Source: Streptomyces sannanensis
GTDB taxonomy: Bacteria > Actinomycetota > Actinomycetes > Streptomycetales > Streptomycetaceae
Assembly (NCBI RefSeq): GCF_039536205.1
Contig: NZ_BAAAYL010000001.1
Span: 1,488,001 to 1,552,000, forward strand
Direction of reading: 5' to 3'
DNA length: 64,000 nt
Shown one piece after another: positions 5,350 through 23,053 of this stretch; positions within the stretch are counted from its first letter, which is position 1; the number at the start of each line of letters is the position of its first letter. Made by a program: the position numbers and the translations under genes. Below the pieces are notes generated by a model. It searched no databases. It was not told the DNA's origin and worked only from the letters and a program-made list of their open reading frames with translations.

Positions 5350-5575
5350 TGACGGGCGTTCGGGGGGCGTGGTGGACTGCCGGGGCCAAGTACGGCGGCA
5401 GAAGAGGAAGCCGGTGCGAATCCGGCGCGGTCCCGCCACTGTCACCGGGGAGCGCTCCTCCACATCGGACGTCACGGCCTGCCGACGCAGGCTGGAAGGC
5501 CGGAGGAACCGCGGATCCGGGAGCCAGGAGACTCTCGCCGCCGGTCACGTCGAACCAGGGCGCGGACCCTGAGTG
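5350..5575 (+). promoter_or_regulatory. Cobalamin (AdoCbl) riboswitch
   Basis: The conserved core is directly readable: GGAAGCCGGTGCGAATCC at 5406-5423, then GCGGTCCCGCCACTGT ending at 5442, and the 3' element GGGAGCCAGGAGACTC around 5518-5533. These are hallmarks of the cobalamin riboswitch class. It lies in front of the whole cob operon, so coenzyme B12 should shut down its own synthesis. The first start codon downstream (5589) follows GTGAGGAC, which lies at the 3' edge of the aptamer, so control is probably exerted on translation initiation. The 5' boundary is approximate. Confidence 0.93.
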
Positions 5576-8697: not shown

Positions 8698-10742
8698 GCA
8701 CCCGCTATCCGTTCACCGCGGTCGTCGGCATGGACGACCTGCGGCTGGCGTTGCTGCTCAACGCCGTCAGCCCGGCGGTGGGCGGAGTCCTCGTCCGTGG
8801 GGAGAAAGGAACGGCCAAGTCGACGGCGGTGCGCGCGTTGGCAGACCTGTTGCCCGAGGTGCCGGTGGTCGCGGGATGCCGCTTCAGCTGCGACCCGGCC
8901 ACGCCCGATCCGCAGTGCCCCGACGGGCCTCATGAGGCCGCCCATGGCACTGCCCGTCCTGCCCGGATGGTCGAACTGCCGGTGGGTGCTTCGGAGGACC
9001 GGCTCGTCGGCGCTCTGGACATCGAGCGGGCGCTCGCGGAGGGCGTGAAGGCCTTTGAGCCCGGGCTCCTGGCGGCCGCGCATCGCGGGATTCTGTATGT
9101 CGATGAGGTCAATCTTCTTCATGACCATCTGATCGACCTCCTGCTGGACGCGGCCGCCATGGGCGCCTCCTACGTCGAGCGTGAAGGCGTCTCCGTACGG
9201 CATGCCGCGCGCTTCCTGCTCGTGGGGACCATGAACCCCGAGGAGGGCGAGCTGCGGCCGCAGCTCCTCGACCGGTTCGGACTGACCGTGGAGGTCGCGG
9301 CCTCCCGGGACCCCGAGCGGCGGGTCGAGGTCGTGCGGCGGCGGCTCGCGTACGACGACGACCCGGCGGCCTTCGCCGCGCGCTGGGCGGGCGAGGAGGC
9401 CGCGCTGCGGGAGCGCGTCGTGGCCGCGCGGGCGTTGCTGCCGCAGGTGGTGCTCGGCGACGACGCCCTGCGTCAGATCGCCGCGACCTGCGCAGCGTTC
9501 GAGGTGGACGGCATGCGCGCCGACATCGTGATGGCCCGTACCGCGACCGCGCTCGCCGCGTGGGCGGGGCGTACGGACGTCACCGTCGAGGATGTGCGGC
9601 AGGCCGCGCTGCTGGCGCTGCCGCACAGGCGCAGGCGCAACCCCTTCGACGCGCCCGGCCTCGACGAGGACAAGCTCGACGAGACGCTGGAGCAGTCCGG
9701 CGGCAACGACGACAACGACCCGGATCCCGACCCCGACGGCCCCGGTGGCGGTCCGGGTGGTGGCGGAGGTGTGCCGCCTCAGTCGCAGGGTCCCGATGCC
9801 GCGCCGCGGTCGGAGGAGCCCTCCCCCGGTGCCGGGACCGGTGCCGGCGAGCAGGCCGCCGTCCGCGCCGCCGAGCCGTTCCGTACGAAGATGCTGAGCG
9901 TGCCCGGGCTCGGCGAGGGCGCAGCCGGGCGGCGTTCCCGGGCCCGTACCGAGCACGGCCGGACCACGGGTGCCCGGCGTCCGCAGGGGGCTCTGACGAA
10001 GCTGCACCTGGCGGCGACCGTGCAGGCCGCCGCCCCGCATCAGCGGGCGCGCGGGCGCTCAGGACCGGGGCTCGTCGTCCGCCGGGACGATCTGCGGCAG
10101 GCGACCCGCGAGGGCCGCGAGGGCAATCTCGTCCTCTTCTGCGTGGATGCCTCCGGCTCGATGGCCGCCCGTAAGCGGATGAGCGCCGTGAAGGGCGCCG
10201 TGCTGTCGCTGCTGCTGGACGCGTACCAGCGCCGCGACAAGGTCGGCCTGGTCACCTTCCGCGGCCGGGACGCCGAAGTGGCGCTGCCGCCGACCTCCTC
10301 GGTCGACGCGGCTGCGGCACGGCTCGAGTCGCTGCCGACCGGCGGCCGTACCCCCCTGTCGGCGGGCCTGCTGAAGGCCCATGACGTGCTGCGCGTGGAG
10401 CGGCTGCGTGACCCCTCGCGCCGTCCGCTGCTGGTCGTCGTCACGGACGGCCGGGCCACCGAATCAGGCGGGGCCGCGCGCAGCCCGTCGTCGCAAGGGC
10501 GGTGGCGGGCGACGGGCGGGAGCGACCCGGTCGCGCTGGCCGCGCGTGCCGCGCGGCTGCACGCGGCCGAGGGCACGGCCTCGGTCGTCGTGGACTGCGA
10601 GGCGGGGCCGGTACGGCTCGGACTGGCCGGGCGGCTGGCCGCCGATCTGGGCGGTACCGCCATCACTCTCGACGAGCTGCGCGCGGACAGCATCGCCGGG
10701 CTCGTACGAGACTTCCGCACCGATTCAAGGAGGGCCGCGTAA
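8694..10742 (+). CDS. Magnesium/cobalt chelatase ChlI-ChlD-type ATPase subunit
   Basis: 682 residues from the ATG at 8694, chosen because CGAAGGAGCGATC precedes it. Residues 1-330 form an AAA+ ChlI/BchI-like module: Walker [10 protein letters not shown] at 36-44, Walker [11 protein letters not shown], and the [21 protein letters not shown] sensor region. A Gly/Pro/Asp-rich acidic linker follows (about 330-400). The C-terminal part is a von Willebrand A domain with the MIDAS motif DASGS near 484. The fusion corresponds to the I and D subunits in one chain and should power metal insertion by a CobN-type large subunit, which is absent from this cluster. Its stop overlaps the cobO ATG (TAATG). 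Confidence 0.9.
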
Positions 10743-16751: not shown

Positions 16752-17843
16752 TCAGCCCATGACGCGGCCGTTCAGAATCACATGGCTGGGCGAGCCCAGC
16801 ACCCGGACGTCCGCTCGCGGGTCCTCGTCGTAGACGACCAGGTCCGCCGGGGCGCCCTCCTCCAGGGCGGGGCGGCCCAGCCACGAACGAGCCCCCCAGG
16901 TCGTGGCCGACAGGGCGTCCAGTGGCGGGATGCCCGCGGTGACCAGCTCGGCGACCTCCTCCGCGACCAGGCCGTGGGCCAGGGAGCCGCCCGCGTCCGT
17001 GCCCACGAAGATCGGGATGCCCGCGTCGTACGCCGCGCGGACCGTTTCGTAGCGGCGGGCGTGGAGAGCGCGCATATGGGCCGACCAGAGCGGGAACTTC
17101 TGCTCGCCGCCGGCCGCGAGCTGCGGGAAGGTCGCGATGTTGATCAGGGTCGGGACGATCGCCACGCCGCGCTCCGCGAAGAGCGGGATCGTGTCCTCGG
17201 TCAGGCCGGTCGCGTGCTCGATGCAGTCGATGCCCGCCTCGACGAGCGGCTGGAGCGACTCCTCGGCGAAGCAGTGCGCGGTGACCCGGGCGCCCAGCCG
17301 GTGAGCCTCGGCGATCGCGGCCTCCACCTCACCGCGCGGCCAGCAAGTCCCCAGGTCGCCCGTCTCGCGGTCGATCCAGTCGCCGACCAGCTTGACCCAG
17401 CCGTCGCCGCGCTTCGCCTCCTGGGCGACGTAGGCGACGAGGTCGCCGGGCTCGATCTCGTGGGCGTAGTTGCGGATGTAGCGGCGGGTGCGGGCGATGT
17501 GGCGGCCGGCCCGGATGATCTTCGGGAGGTCGTCCCGGTCGTCGATCCAGCGGGTGTCGGAGGGGGATCCGGCGTCGCGGATGAGGAGGGTGCCCGCCTC
17601 GCGGTCGGTGACGGCCTGCTTCTCGCTGGTCTCGGCGTCGACCGGGCCGTGGGCGTCGAGCCCCACGTGGCAGTGCGCGTCGACCAGGCCGGGCAGCGCC
17701 CACCCGAAAACGGTAGGGGCGTCGTCCGTGCCGGGCGGGCGCTCGTAGGTGATGCGGCCGTCGACCGCCCACAGCTCGTCCCGGACCTCCTCGGGACCGA
17801 CGAGCACCCGCCCCTTCACATGCAGCACCACGTGATCGCTCAT
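16752..17843 (-). CDS. Metal-dependent amidohydrolase
   Basis: 363 residues from the ATG at 17843 (a GTG nine bases upstream is also possible, and neither has a strong ribosome site). The metal-dependent TIM-barrel is marked by VDAHCHVGLD (first metal His pair, about 56-65), VTAHCFAEESLQ, DCIEHATGL (third and fourth His) and FVGTDAGGSLAHG (active-site Asp). It resembles the imidazolonepropionase/prolidase-like branch of amidohydrolases. The substrate is unknown. Divergent from the class V aminotransferase at 17913, with about 70 bp for two promoters. No signal peptide. Confidence 0.88.
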   Translation of the reverse strand: MSDHVVLHVKGRVLVGPEEVRDELWAVDGRITYERPPGTDDAPTVFGWALPGLVDAHCHVGLDAHGPVDAETSEKQAVTDREAGTLLIRDAGSPSDTRWIDDRDDLPKIIRAGRHIARTRRYIRNYAHEIEPGDLVAYVAQEAKRGDGWVKLVGDWIDRETGDLGTCWPRGEVEAAIAEAHRLGARVTAHCFAEESLQPLVEAGIDCIEHATGLTEDTIPLFAERGVAIVPTLINIATFPQLAAGGEQKFPLWSAHMRALHARRYETVRAAYDAGIPIFVGTDAGGSLAHGLVAEEVAELVTAGIPPLDALSATTWGARSWLGRPALEEGAPADLVVYDEDPRADVRVLGSPSHVILNGRVMG

Positions 17844-17912
17844 GTCCAGCACTTTACGAGCACTGGGTAGTCTCGATCGACGAGAGTTCGATTACAGCTT
17901 GCAAGGAGAGAC

Positions 17913-19010
17913 GTGAGCCACCCGCTTCTGGACCTGACCCCGCTGACCGCCACGCACTTCGCGGACATCGAGCGCCGGGTGGCCTCGCTGCTCCGCACCG
18001 AGCAGGACGTGGTCATCATGCAGGGCGAGGCGCTGCTCCCTCTGGAGGGCTGCATCAAGGGCGCGGCCCACCCCGGTTCGACCGCGCTGAACGTCGTCAC
18101 CGGGCCGTACGGGCAGACCTTCGGGAACTGGCTGCGGGACGCCGGGGCGAACGTGATCGACCTGGCGGTGCCCTTCCACACCGCGGTCACCGCCGCGCAG
18201 ATCGAGCAGGCGCTGGCGGAGCATCCCGGGATCGACTTCGTGTCGCTGGTGCACGCGGAGGCCGCGACCGGCAACACCAACCCGGTCGCGGAGATCGGTG
18301 AGGTGGTACGGGCCCATGGCGCCCTCTTCATGGTCGACGCCGTCGCCTCGGTGGGTGCCGAGCCGCTGCTGACCGACGAGTGGGGCGTGGACCTGTGCGT
18401 GATCGGCGCGCAGAAGGCGATGGGCGGCCCGGCGGGAGTGTCGGCGGTGTCGGTGAGCGGGCGCGCCTGGGAGCGGATGGCCGCCAACCCTGCGGCGCCG
18501 CGCCGCTCGTACCTCTCCCTGCTGGACTGGAAGGAGCGCTGGATCGACGGCGGCCGCCGGGCGCTGCTGCACGCCCCCGCGCAGCTGGAGATGCTGGCGC
18601 TCGAGGCATGCCTGGAGCGGATCGAGACGGAGACCCTGGACGCGGTGATCGCGCGGCACGCCTCGGCCGCCGCGGCCATGCGCGCGGGCGTGCTCGCGCT
18701 GGGCGGCGGGCCGGCCCCGTACGTCCACGAGGCGCGCGAGGCGGCGCCGGTGGCGACGACGCTGCGTGCGCCCGCTGGGGTGGACGCCTCCGAGCTGGTG
18801 GCGAAGGCGCTGGCCGTCGACCCGTCGGTGCCGCTGATCGCGGGCGGCGGGGCGCTGGCGTCCGAGATGATCCGGGTCAACCACTACGGCGTGGACGCGG
18901 CGCCGGGCGTGGTGGAGTCCTCGCTGGCGGCGCTGGGCGCGGCGCTGGGCGAGTACGGGCTGACGGCGGATGTGGAGGCCGCCCGCAAGGCGGCCTCCAC
19001 GGCCTGGTAG
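17913..19010 (+). CDS. Class V PLP-dependent aminotransferase
   Basis: 365 residues starting at GTG 17913 with AAGGAGAGAC in front. It is a fold type I, class V enzyme: HAEAATGNTNPV (114-125), MVDAVASVGAEP and the PLP-binding Lys at about 168 (VIGAQKAMGGPAG) are clear. It resembles alanine-glyoxylate/serine-glyoxylate and purine-catabolism aminotransferases, but the sequence does not fix the amino donor. Cytoplasmic. The gene is divergent from the amidohydrolase, and the pairing of an amidohydrolase with an alanine-glyoxylate-like aminotransferase could point to nitrogen-compound breakdown. That is inference from neighbourhood. Confidence 0.88.
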   Translation: MSHPLLDLTPLTATHFADIERRVASLLRTEQDVVIMQGEALLPLEGCIKGAAHPGSTALNVVTGPYGQTFGNWLRDAGANVIDLAVPFHTAVTAAQIEQALAEHPGIDFVSLVHAEAATGNTNPVAEIGEVVRAHGALFMVDAVASVGAEPLLTDEWGVDLCVIGAQKAMGGPAGVSAVSVSGRAWERMAANPAAPRRSYLSLLDWKERWIDGGRRALLHAPAQLEMLALEACLERIETETLDAVIARHASAAAAMRAGVLALGGGPAPYVHEAREAAPVATTLRAPAGVDASELVAKALAVDPSVPLIAGGGALASEMIRVNHYGVDAAPGVVESSLAALGAALGEYGLTADVEAARKAASTAW

Positions 19011-20540: not shown

Positions 20541-21536
20541 CTATCTGGGCGTGGTGGGGCTGCACACGTCGGGCGAGCAGTTCTGGGGCTGGCACGACTG
20601 GGAGCACAGCAGGGGCTCGCACGGGCAGGACAGGTCGGGGTTGCAGGACTGGGGGCATTCCCTGGCGCTGCTCTGCCACACCGTGTCGTGGATCTCCCGG
20701 CGGATCCGCGCCAGCTCGTCGCCGTTCACGATCTCGTCGAGGGTCTGGTGCAGGATGTCGCCGACCGGCCAGTTCCGTGCCATGACGCAAGGGAAGACCC
20801 GTCCGTCCGGTGCGACGGCGAGGCTGCCCTTCCAGCAGTGCCCGCACAGGCTGGAGAGGTTCGCCTCCTGCCCGAGGAGTTCCCGGCCCCGTCCGAACTG
20901 CCGTACCTCGGACGCCCGTACCTGTCCGTCGACACCGAGGTCCATCAGGTACCGCCGGGTGCGTTCCACGGCGTCTGCGTCCTCGTTCACCGCGATCACG
21001 CCCACTCGCGTGGGGACCTTGTGCTCGATGAGCCGCCGAAGGTTGGCGACGGTGCGCCGGTGACTGCCGCGGACGGTGGTGACGGCGTCGTGCGCGACGG
21101 GGTCGTCGGAGTAGACGGAGGTCGCGAAGTGCACTCCGTTCTCGACCGAGAACGCCAGGGTCTCGTCGTCGAGCCGGGTGAGATTGCTGAACACCTCGAC
21201 GAAGTCGAAGCCGCACTCCACGCTACAGCGCAGCAGGCGCCGGAAGTCCGGGTTGAGCTGGGGCTCTCCGCCGATCAGCTGGACGCGGCGGCAGCCCAGG
21301 TCGTAGGCCTGGCTCAGCACGGATTCGTAGTCCTCGGCGGTGAGGACGTCCTGGTCGCCGCTGAGCGGATGCGACTCGGTGTAGCAGTGGACGCACTGCA
21401 GATTGCAGCGGTTGGTCAGTTCGAGCCAGAGGAAGTTCAGGACTCCGTCGACGTCGTCGAGCGCCGGGGGCGTCCCCGGCTGTGTCTCCGTGGCGTGCAC
21501 GTGATGCCCTTCCGCCGCTGATGAGCTCAGTCCCAC
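20541..21536 (-). CDS. Radical SAM protein with Cys-rich C-terminal (SPASM-like) region
   Basis: 331 residues. The radical SAM cluster motif C-x3-C-x2-C is at Cys 44, 48 and 51 (NRCNLQCVHC). LIGGEPQLNPDF binds SAM, as GGEP motifs do in the family. From about 230 a CGHCWKGSLAVAPDGRVFPC stretch and, in the last 45 residues, ten more Cys (CPQSC, CPCEPLLC, CQPQNC) indicate auxiliary iron-sulphur clusters of the SPASM/twitch kind. Enzymes of this build usually modify peptides or proteins. The start overlaps the 78-residue gene upstream by ten bases, a strong hint that the two products work together. The substrate is unknown. No transporter or protease is beside it. Confidence 0.9.
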   Translation of the reverse strand: MGLSSSAAEGHHVHATETQPGTPPALDDVDGVLNFLWLELTNRCNLQCVHCYTESHPLSGDQDVLTAEDYESVLSQAYDLGCRRVQLIGGEPQLNPDFRRLLRCSVECGFDFVEVFSNLTRLDDETLAFSVENGVHFATSVYSDDPVAHDAVTTVRGSHRRTVANLRRLIEHKVPTRVGVIAVNEDADAVERTRRYLMDLGVDGQVRASEVRQFGRGRELLGQEANLSSLCGHCWKGSLAVAPDGRVFPCVMARNWPVGDILHQTLDEIVNGDELARIRREIHDTVWQSSARECPQSCNPDLSCPCEPLLCSQSCQPQNCSPDVCSPTTPR

Positions 21537-21763
21537 AGGGCCGTCCCCTCCTGATCCGGAATCGGCATCAGGAGCAGTTCGCCTCGCCAGTCAACCGGGG
21601 TCATGGTGAGGACCATCGAGAACGCGCGCCCGCCCCGGGCCTGGAACTCCCAGGCCTGGCCGATGGTGAACCACACATCGCCGTCAGGTGTCGTCCTCGC
21701 CCGGACGGCGAATTGCGGGGGGCCGGATATGTCCGGCGGAAGATCCTTGTCGTCCTGGGGCAC
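21527..21763 (-). CDS. 78-residue unknown protein coupled to radical SAM gene
   Basis: Starts at GTG 21763 and ends inside the radical SAM gene (ten-base overlap). The sequence begins MPQDDKDLPPDISG and has a conserved-looking centre with DVWFTIGQAWEF, a mixed beta pattern, and an acidic end (PIPDQEGTALWD). It has four Trp and no Cys, no signal peptide and no membrane span. I do not recognise a family. Given the overlap, it could be the enzyme's substrate, a leader-binding chaperone (an RRE-like role), or a small regulator. The length and lack of a Gly-Gly or other leader boundary make a plain RiPP precursor less likely than a partner protein. Confidence 0.7.
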   Translation of the reverse strand: MPQDDKDLPPDISGPPQFAVRARTTPDGDVWFTIGQAWEFQARGGRAFSMVLTMTPVDWRGELLLMPIPDQEGTALWD

Positions 21764-21829
21764 AGCTGCTCACCATCCTTGCCCTGCGGCGCCTGATTGC
21801 GGTCCCAGATTCGCATCATTCACATTGCA

Positions 21830-21853
21830 CCGATATCGGACTCGTCCGATCGG
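21830..21853. promoter_or_regulatory. Tandem palindromes upstream of the radical SAM unit
   Basis: CCGATATCGG at 21830-21839 is followed six bases later by CCGATCGG at 21846-21853. Both are perfect palindromes with the same half-site, about 70-90 bp upstream of the 78-residue gene. They may be the operator of the unit. The convergent XRE-TPR protein is a candidate ligand. A GC-rich stem (21873-21880 with 21901-21908) further upstream could end the aminotransferase transcript. Confidence 0.35.
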
Positions 21854-21994
21854 GGAGGACGCCGGGCCGGGCGGCGCCGGATACGGCCACCCCGGGCCGC
21901 CCGGCGCCTCCGCGCCCGGGGACTCAGCCGGCCAGGACCGGGTAGTGCACCGAGACGGCGGACCGGCCCGAGGCGAAGCAGGGCTGCTGAGGCC

Positions 21995-23053
21995 TCAGCC
22001 CGCCAGGACCTCCAGGACGCGGTCCACGTCGGCCGCGGTGTTGTAGAGGTGGAAGGACACCCGCAGGTTGCCCGCACGGGCCGCGGTGATGACGCCGGCC
22101 GCGGCCAGCTCGGGCTCGCGGTCCGCCAGGCCCGGCACCGAGACGCTCGTCGAGCCGGGCGCGGGCACCGGCCGGTGGCCGAGGGAGAGCAGGCCCTCCC
22201 GGTAGCGGTCGGCGAGCGCGGTGTTGTGGGCGTGAACGGCCTCGATGCCGATCTCCTCGAGCAGCGCGAGCGACTGCTCGGCCGCGTGGTACGCGTAGAA
22301 GGACACCGGCTCGTCGTAGCGGCGGGCGGATGCGGCGAAGACCTCGACCGGGCCGTAGGTGCTGTTCCACCTGTCCTCGGCGCCGACCCAGGTCCCGTGC
22401 AGCGGCGCCATGGTCTCCTGAGCCTCCTCTGAGACGGTCAGGAAGGACACGCCTCGCGGACACATCAGGTACTTGTAGCCCGCGGTCACCGTGAAGTCGT
22501 ACAGACCCGCGTCCATCGGCAGCCAGCCCGCCGACTGGCAGGCGTCGACGAGCGTACGGGCCCCGTGCGCGGCCGCCGCGGCCCGTACCGCCGCCAGGTC
22601 GGCCAGCCGGCCGTCCGCCGACTGCGCGGCGGAGGTGGCGACCAGCGCGGTGCCGGGCCGCACCGCCTCGGCCAGCTCCTCCAGCGGCGCGTACCGCACC
22701 TTGAGATCGCCGCGGACCGTGAACGGCGTGATCACCGAGCTGAACTCGCCCTCGGTGATGAGGACTTCGGCGCCCGGCGGCAGCGAGGAGGCGATCAGCG
22801 CGACATGCACGGCCACCGAGCCGCCGGTGGCCACCCGCCCTGCGTCCACTCCGACGAGCCGGGCGAAGGACGCGCGGGCCGCGTCCACCTTCTCGAAGCT
22901 GCCCGGCCCGCCACGCACCCCGGCGGCGTTCTCGTCGGCCAGCGCTTTCACGGCCTCGAGCGCCCGCCGGGGCAGCAGCCCCGCGGTCGAGGTGTTCAGG
23001 TACGTCGACTGCGGCGCGAACTCGTCGGCCGCCGGATTGCCCAAGTTCTCCAT
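21995..23053 (-). CDS. Class V aminotransferase (cysteine desulfurase-like fold)
   Basis: 352 residues. STYLNTSTAGLLPRRAL at the N-terminus and the PLP Lys at about 194 (AGYKYLMCPRG) place it with isopenicillin-N-epimerase/cysteine-desulfurase-like class V enzymes. TLVDACQSAGWLPMD has the cofactor-binding Asp, and NLRVSFHLYN the C-terminal Arg. No active-site Cys loop of a true cysteine desulfurase is evident. ATG start at 23053. It precedes the 78-residue/radical SAM pair on the same strand, but 231 bp with a possible stem-loop separate them, so shared transcription is uncertain. Reaction not predictable. Confidence 0.86.
   Translation of the reverse strand: MENLGNPAADEFAPQSTYLNTSTAGLLPRRALEAVKALADENAAGVRGGPGSFEKVDAARASFARLVGVDAGRVATGGSVAVHVALIASSLPPGAEVLITEGEFSSVITPFTVRGDLKVRYAPLEELAEAVRPGTALVATSAAQSADGRLADLAAVRAAAAAHGARTLVDACQSAGWLPMDAGLYDFTVTAGYKYLMCPRGVSFLTVSEEAQETMAPLHGTWVGAEDRWNSTYGPVEVFAASARRYDEPVSFYAYHAAEQSLALLEEIGIEAVHAHNTALADRYREGLLSLGHRPVPAPGSTSVSVPGLADREPELAAAGVITAARAGNLRVSFHLYNTAADVDRVLEVLAG

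Follow-up and report, generated by a model that had tools for sequence, protein, structure and literature searches.

A rare radical SAM enzyme family with a Cys/Pro-rich tail that may be its own substrate, and the small protein paired with one of its clades

Sactipeptide maturases such as SkfB, AlbA and StsB combine a radical S-adenosylmethionine (SAM) barrel with an auxiliary iron-sulfur cluster domain of the SPASM/twitch type, and maturases of this kind, which serve ribosomally synthesized and post-translationally modified peptides (RiPPs), act on separate precursor peptides. An enzyme of the same build, closest to SkfB both by Protein Data Bank (PDB) sequence and by fold, is encoded beside a 78-residue protein in a 64,000-nucleotide stretch of the Streptomyces sannanensis genome (contig NZ_BAAAYL010000001.1, positions 1,488,001 to 1,552,000; hereafter the window). 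It differs from SkfB, AlbA and StsB in lacking a RiPP recognition element (RRE), in falling below every NCBIfam cut-off among its best 25 of 78 matches, and in carrying a C-terminal tail rich in Cys and Pro; no separate precursor gene was found, and no shared exporter or immunity genes were seen at its loci. Passages of PMC8429565 describe fungal borosins of the OphMA type, whose modifying enzyme carries its substrate peptide at the C-terminus. The window enzyme resembles these fused borosins in that a candidate substrate peptide, as we infer its role, forms its C-terminus, whereas its catalytic domain is radical SAM rather than a SAM-dependent alpha-N-methyltransferase, and its self-modification is a proposal. 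A further likeness lies with the ranthipeptide systems (SCIFF, freyrasin), which have Cys-rich targets and, in CteB, an auxiliary cluster whose open site binds a peptide Cys, as parts of PMC8326336 and PMC8172795 describe; their targets, however, are separate peptides, whereas the Cys-rich stretch considered here is the enzyme's own tail and comes without an RRE. No title or abstract on this tailed enzyme family was found in the open-access literature.

We propose a radical SAM peptide maturase that probably forms thioethers and would modify its own C-terminal Cys/Pro tail, with the small protein as an accessory of one clade; roughly, we give this reading a probability of 0.37. Cysteines in the CPQSCxP-like cassettes of the predicted-disordered tail would be cross-linked or otherwise altered. 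One of them would come to the auxiliary cluster, where the core as folded provides no more than three Cys and a site may be open, in the way that a substrate Cys does in CteB. Self-modification would fit what was found: the core resembles a maturase, has three cluster ligands of its own and no recognition domain, and a flexible Cys tail is the one constant companion that the analysis turned up. The small all-beta protein would bind or present the short CPC-type tail, or be a client of the modified tail; its restriction to the clade with a short, fixed CPC tail suggests that it handles that tail.

Relatives of the enzyme numbered 352 at E 1e-10 or better, and tail statistics were taken among the 120 listed. 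Alignment A4 consists of 76 proteins, the window's own and 75 of these 120; it is without the tail-less P0066, the frameshifted-looking P0149 and P0172, and several repeat-bearing proteins (P0108, P0114, P0128, P0146). The features on which the argument draws are the following, with residues numbered on the longest open reading frame.

20541..21500, minus strand: radical SAM/SPASM enzyme gene, 319 aa, placed by Pfam, the 319-residue listing, homologue starts, junction comparison and fold match
21384..21407, minus strand: CNLQCVHC, motif for the SAM-cleaving [4Fe-4S] cluster, with C44, C48 and C51 unvarying throughout A4 (76 proteins)
20787..20846, minus strand: auxiliary-cluster (SPASM/twitch-like) segment C231-x2-C234-x15-C250, invariant in the same 76 proteins
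20544..20657, minus strand: Cys/Pro-rich tail CPQSCNPDLSCPCEPLLCSQSCQPQNCSPDVCSPTTPR, residues 294-331, marked by invariant Cys and Pro in A4, low model confidence and the tails of relatives
21527..21763, minus strand: small partner gene, 78 aa, predicted all-beta, no known family
21508..21513, minus strand: GGAAGG, probable ribosome-binding site, 7 bases upstream of GTG 21500

The initial annotation, made from the letters alone, had described a radical SAM enzyme with CNLQCVHC and about ten C-terminal Cys, in the build of peptide-modifying SPASM enzymes, and both points are borne out. Pfam recognizes Radical_SAM (5.4e-19, 69.4 bits against a cut-off of 29.5) and SPASM (5.9e-10, 39.7 bits against 21.5), and 11 Cys lie from residue 231 onward, namely C231, C234, C250 and eight in the tail, although their arrangement as a linker-tethered and sometimes repeated tail had been missed. 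SkfB leads both the profile search of PDB sequences (2.1e-19) and the fold search (6efn, E 4.6e-12, template modelling score 0.66); in the latter it is followed by SuiB, anSMEcpe, BlsE and 5why, an entry titled after the formation of thioether bonds in sactipeptides, which we take to be CteB. PqqE, AlbA, SkfB and StsB are among the top NCBIfam profiles, all below cut-off, and the equivalog thresholds lie far above the scores obtained (PqqE 70.8 against 381, AlbA 66.6 against 850, SkfB 61.9 against 300, PapB 42.3 against 340). Prokaryotic viperin was considered as the closest family and set aside: pVip matched at 1.2e-11, weaker than the RiPP maturase profiles, and viperin is absent from those best 25 NCBIfam matches (defence context was not searched).

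An RRE, a winged helix of three helices and three strands, is not fused to the enzyme, the small protein is predicted to have four strands, and neither protein has a PqqD-like Pfam match; an RRE encoded elsewhere was not sought. In the AlphaFold2 model most core blocks exceed 90 in predicted local distance difference test score (pLDDT), whereas residues 1-19 fall below 50 and the first barrel strand begins at residue 35, so there is no room for an N-terminal RRE. The auxiliary region of the folded core supplies only its three invariant Cys. In the alignment with anSMEcpe, C234 and C250 fall on Cys and C231 does not, and the tail begins near the position of that enzyme's next Cys pair.

This arrangement brings in the main and strongest rival to self-modification, namely that the SPASM domain has its second half in the tail, that the tail Cys complete one or more auxiliary iron-sulfur clusters, and that the true substrate is another protein or peptide with its gene elsewhere. 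We regard it as somewhat doubtful. Beside the shortage of core ligands and the place where the tail starts, it gains from the invariance of both CxxxC pairs in A4, where C294, C298, P300, C311, C315 and P317 do not vary, and from the number of CPQSCxP-like cassettes of which the tails are made: exactly two CxxxCxP cassettes occur in 99 of 119 parsed tails. (P0098 was dropped from the 120 because the motif was not found; P0149 and P0172, whose tails look frameshifted, are kept in the 119.) Other properties of the tail speak against the rival. Three to seven cassettes are present in 12 of the 119 tails (the remaining eight have fewer than two). The linker between core and first cassette, counted in 113 of the 120 after removal of six more proteins without CxxxCxP, spans 6-25 residues (median 9) in 35 CPC-tail enzymes and 8-92 (median 32.5) in 78 others; it exceeds 25 residues in 41 of those 78 and in none of the 35, and the value of 25 for P0056 is overstated, its first cassette (CPQCC) having escaped the linker rule. 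P, A, E, K, G and D abound in the linkers that exceed this length. Exact internal repeats of at least nine residues occur in 8 of 113 tails, seven of which repeat cassette sequence, and the longest reaches 39 residues (P0108). AlphaFold2 leaves the tail unfolded, with pLDDT below 50 for residues 295-318 and 322-331, which predicts disorder. Long linkers, duplicated cassettes and predicted disorder are less well explained by cluster ligation than by self-modification.

The composition of the tail bears on another alternative, which we consider improbable: that the tail stays unmodified and serves as a metal-, heme- or partner-binding regulatory arm, with the small protein as its binding partner. 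Cys-Pro motifs resemble heme regulatory motifs. Among the 917 Cys in the 119 tails, 596 stand in CxP and 228 more in CP without CxP, so that 824 have Pro at +1 or +2, and it is these 228 that suit a regulatory arm. Its predicted disorder also agrees with such a role, as does its faster evolution: in all six pairs compared, the ratio of nonsynonymous to synonymous substitution rates (dN/dS) is higher for the tail (0.33-0.93, from about 20 synonymous sites) than for the core (0.12-0.37), although in one pair barely so (0.33 against 0.31). The restriction of the small gene to one tail type would follow from it as well. The Pro beside most tail Cys, the predicted disorder, the higher dN/dS and the tie of the small gene to the CPC-tail clade count for self-modification too. 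A regulatory arm leaves unexplained, however, why a RiPP-maturase-like core should lack a recognition domain and why cassettes should be duplicated on long linkers.

A separate precursor peptide was sought through the tail's cassette sequence. In the own genome, the codon pattern CxQ-x-CxP (fourth codon WSN) occurs at 9 places; two are in the enzyme tail (CPQSC and CSQSC) and the others, translated by eye, read CPQRC, CRQSC or CAQCC. CPQ(S/T)CxP was absent outside the enzyme tail from five genomes inspected by eye (the own and four further), a result that leaves room for a precursor of other sequence. When nine loci were read in six frames, C.Q(S/T)C.P or CPQ(S/T)C appeared only in the enzyme tail, at the eight loci with the enzyme. 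Across 72,556 plasmid records, the cassette pair matched only the enzyme-bearing record of Rhizobium sullae, at two places.

Several observations weigh against self-modification. The two-cassette count is more regular than free-running repeats would be, and within the window's own CPC clade the tail is short and conserved. AlphaFold2 works without modelling clusters, so the low confidence of the tail is compatible with cluster ligation. P0066 from Micromonospora chersina is 75% identical to the window enzyme and its listed sequence stops at CPQS, without nearly the whole tail; it may be a truncated gene, a frameshift or a natural tail-less form, and, judged from the protein listing, most of the proposed substrate would be lacking. 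The other CxQ(S/T)CxP codon matches in the four further genomes occur at about the rate of a reversed-pattern control or somewhat above, with their genes unchecked, and the second cassette place in R. sullae is unread. Finally, no protease or exporter common to the sites was found: L023 (plasmid NZ_CP109590.1) and, by eye, L038 carry a gene for an M28 peptidase upstream, and L023 also one for a major facilitator superfamily (MFS) transporter, both unseen at the other sites.

The small protein had been described as a 78-residue reading frame with four Trp and no known family, and this holds. It has no Pfam match, its best NCBIfam and PHROGs matches are at E 0.18 and 0.46, and PADLOC returned nothing. 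A first search gave 8 proteins and a profile search 53, each count including the window's own; one of the 53, P0053 (Vgb_lyase), was taken as unrelated and removed, and P0048, P0051 and P0052 were left out of the alignment (A3). Only one of the 49 aligned members has any Pfam match, at E 0.036, so the profile search that had been suggested as a check joined the protein to no known family. The conserved core reads ARxxPxGDVWFTIGQxWxF...MTPxxWxGELLLxPI, and W31, F32, T33, G35, Q36, W38, P56, W59 and G61 are invariant in the 49. AlphaFold2 predicts four strands (18-23, 32-42, 45-52, 62-67) with a mean pLDDT of 79 and block means above 80 for residues 11-70. Pairwise dN/dS is 0.14-0.69 in all nine pairs with dS of at least 0.5, and the small gene is therefore under purifying selection.

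At all five close loci seen, the window included, the small gene lies directly upstream of the enzyme gene. A search with the enzyme led to 70% identical enzymes in G231, on plasmid NZ_CP109590.1 and in G907; a search with the small gene led to the locus in Streptomyces sp. BK340 (L012), whose enzyme shares 69% identity over the C-terminal part. L023 and L038 share surroundings and are nearly identical, and the sites thus count as four independent ones rather than five. In the plasmid records, the small gene and an enzyme at least 60% identical each occur once, in the same record. The small gene is present in 3 of 394 family genomes (the own, G231 and G262), and the enzyme, at E 1e-60 or better and with the own genome included each time, in 2 of 394 family, 1 of 396 phylum and 3 of 392 genus genomes; the enzyme family is rare. 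Neither of the findings that the initial annotation had named as fatal, membership of the small protein in a known unrelated family or separation of the pair in other genomes, was made at the close loci.

The pairing is not universal. A profile search of the fetched stretches found no small gene at three distant loci, L024 (R. sullae), L015 (a viral-collection contig) and L039 (from G803), where the enzymes are 50 to 55% identical to that of the window, and by eye no neighbour gene common to the three was recognised. The small gene instead tracks the CPC-tail enzymes, which together with P0066 form a single FastTree clade (support 0.997). Ten genomes are apparently common, by eye, to the small-protein and enzyme listings; all ten of their enzymes fall in this 36-member clade and none among the other 83 members of the tree. 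We conclude that the gene pair is a real, self-contained two-gene cassette at unrelated sites, with one gene alone at the distant loci. A sister group with enzymes 37-42% identical (L025, L026, L027 and L028) also has CxP-containing C-terminal tails, and the tail trait may therefore be old.

These distributions also bear on the idea that the small protein is itself the substrate, the enzyme cross-linking or otherwise modifying the invariant WFTxGQxW and PxxW residues to give a modified structural or binding protein. It agrees with the pairing of the two genes throughout the close clade, with the invariant Trp in all 49 sequences and with genes that adjoin and, in L012, overlap. All three distant loci, however, have the enzyme without the small gene, and the core chemistry need therefore not involve the small protein, which is moreover a predicted folded domain whose conservation runs through most of the sequence, unlike a leader plus core, and has no invariant Cys. 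We judge this improbable.

One further copy of the cassette appears to be a remnant. In G262 (L011/L030) the small-gene frame departs from the family sequence in mid-domain and another frame, shortly after it, encodes CCSPTEQR, with which the S. lateritius enzyme (P0062) ends; a single deletion appears to have taken out half of the small gene together with almost the whole enzyme gene. The deleted copy (L011:1447-3111) lies directly before a DUF1843 peptide gene (6.3e-10), beside which stands a TIGR03913-like GDL-peptide maturase (548 bits against a cut-off of 592), and in L023 a DUF1843-like fragment was seen by eye after the enzyme. The GDL-motif (DUF1843) system with its TIGR03913 maturase has another enzyme clade and another peptide and was not seen beside the window pair; in some ancestors the two systems may have been neighbours.

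The start of the enzyme gene was revised. Its longest open reading frame (21536-20541, minus strand) had been taken to overlap the small gene by ten bases, which is probably wrong. The protein database gives the enzyme as 319 aa (P0054), many homologues begin with MHA/SxE, the L023 record annotates the gene from a GTG that matches window position 21500, and GGAAGG precedes the start here and, one base closer (six bases), in L014 and L023. The start is thus most likely GTG 21500, which leaves a gap of 26 bases between the genes. In L012 the two genes overlap by 4 bases (GTGA).

The surroundings of the pair in the window do not travel with it. Upstream lies the gene that had been noted as an aminotransferase.

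21995-23053: class-V pyridoxal phosphate (PLP) enzyme, aminotransferase-like, weakly similar to cysteine desulfurases and EgtE, below all cut-offs among the best NCBIfam matches

This gene and a convergent XRE-TPR gene (Pfam) are indeed beside the window pair, yet neither was seen, by eye, beside the pair in L012, L029, L023 or L038, and their membership of the cassette is not supported. The tandem palindromes described upstream are likewise present, at 21830 and 21846, and have no exact copies in L010, L012, L014 or L023 (three sites). A tRNA-Pro-like sequence, a possible integration site, was seen by eye after the pair in L012 (about 9300-9380). By eye, a phosphotransferase-like gene stands close to the enzyme in both L025 and L026, and in L026 an ATPase-like gene separates the two. 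Elsewhere in the window, an Aminotransferase V gene at 17913-19010 is similar to pyridoxamine-pyruvate transaminase (267 bits against a cut-off of 600) and diverges from an amidohydrolase gene at 16752-17852 that is partly Xaa-Pro dipeptidase-like (100 bits against 500), and a cobalamin riboswitch (74.6 bits) lies at 5404-5534.

More broadly, and tentatively, we suggest a widespread but rare radical SAM family whose own RiPP-like Cys/Pro cassette tail would be modified in cis, a radical SAM counterpart of the borosins, in which one mainly actinobacterial clade would have added an all-beta protein dedicated to reading or protecting the tail once modified. Should the tail complete the auxiliary cluster instead, the family would present an unusual SPASM domain on a flexible arm. 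If self-modification is true, a permanently attached substrate would let one or two genes suffice for making Cys-rich modified peptides or protein-derived cofactors. Such systems would be hard to find by precursor mining and easy to express and assay, and their natural cassette variants would serve as design data.

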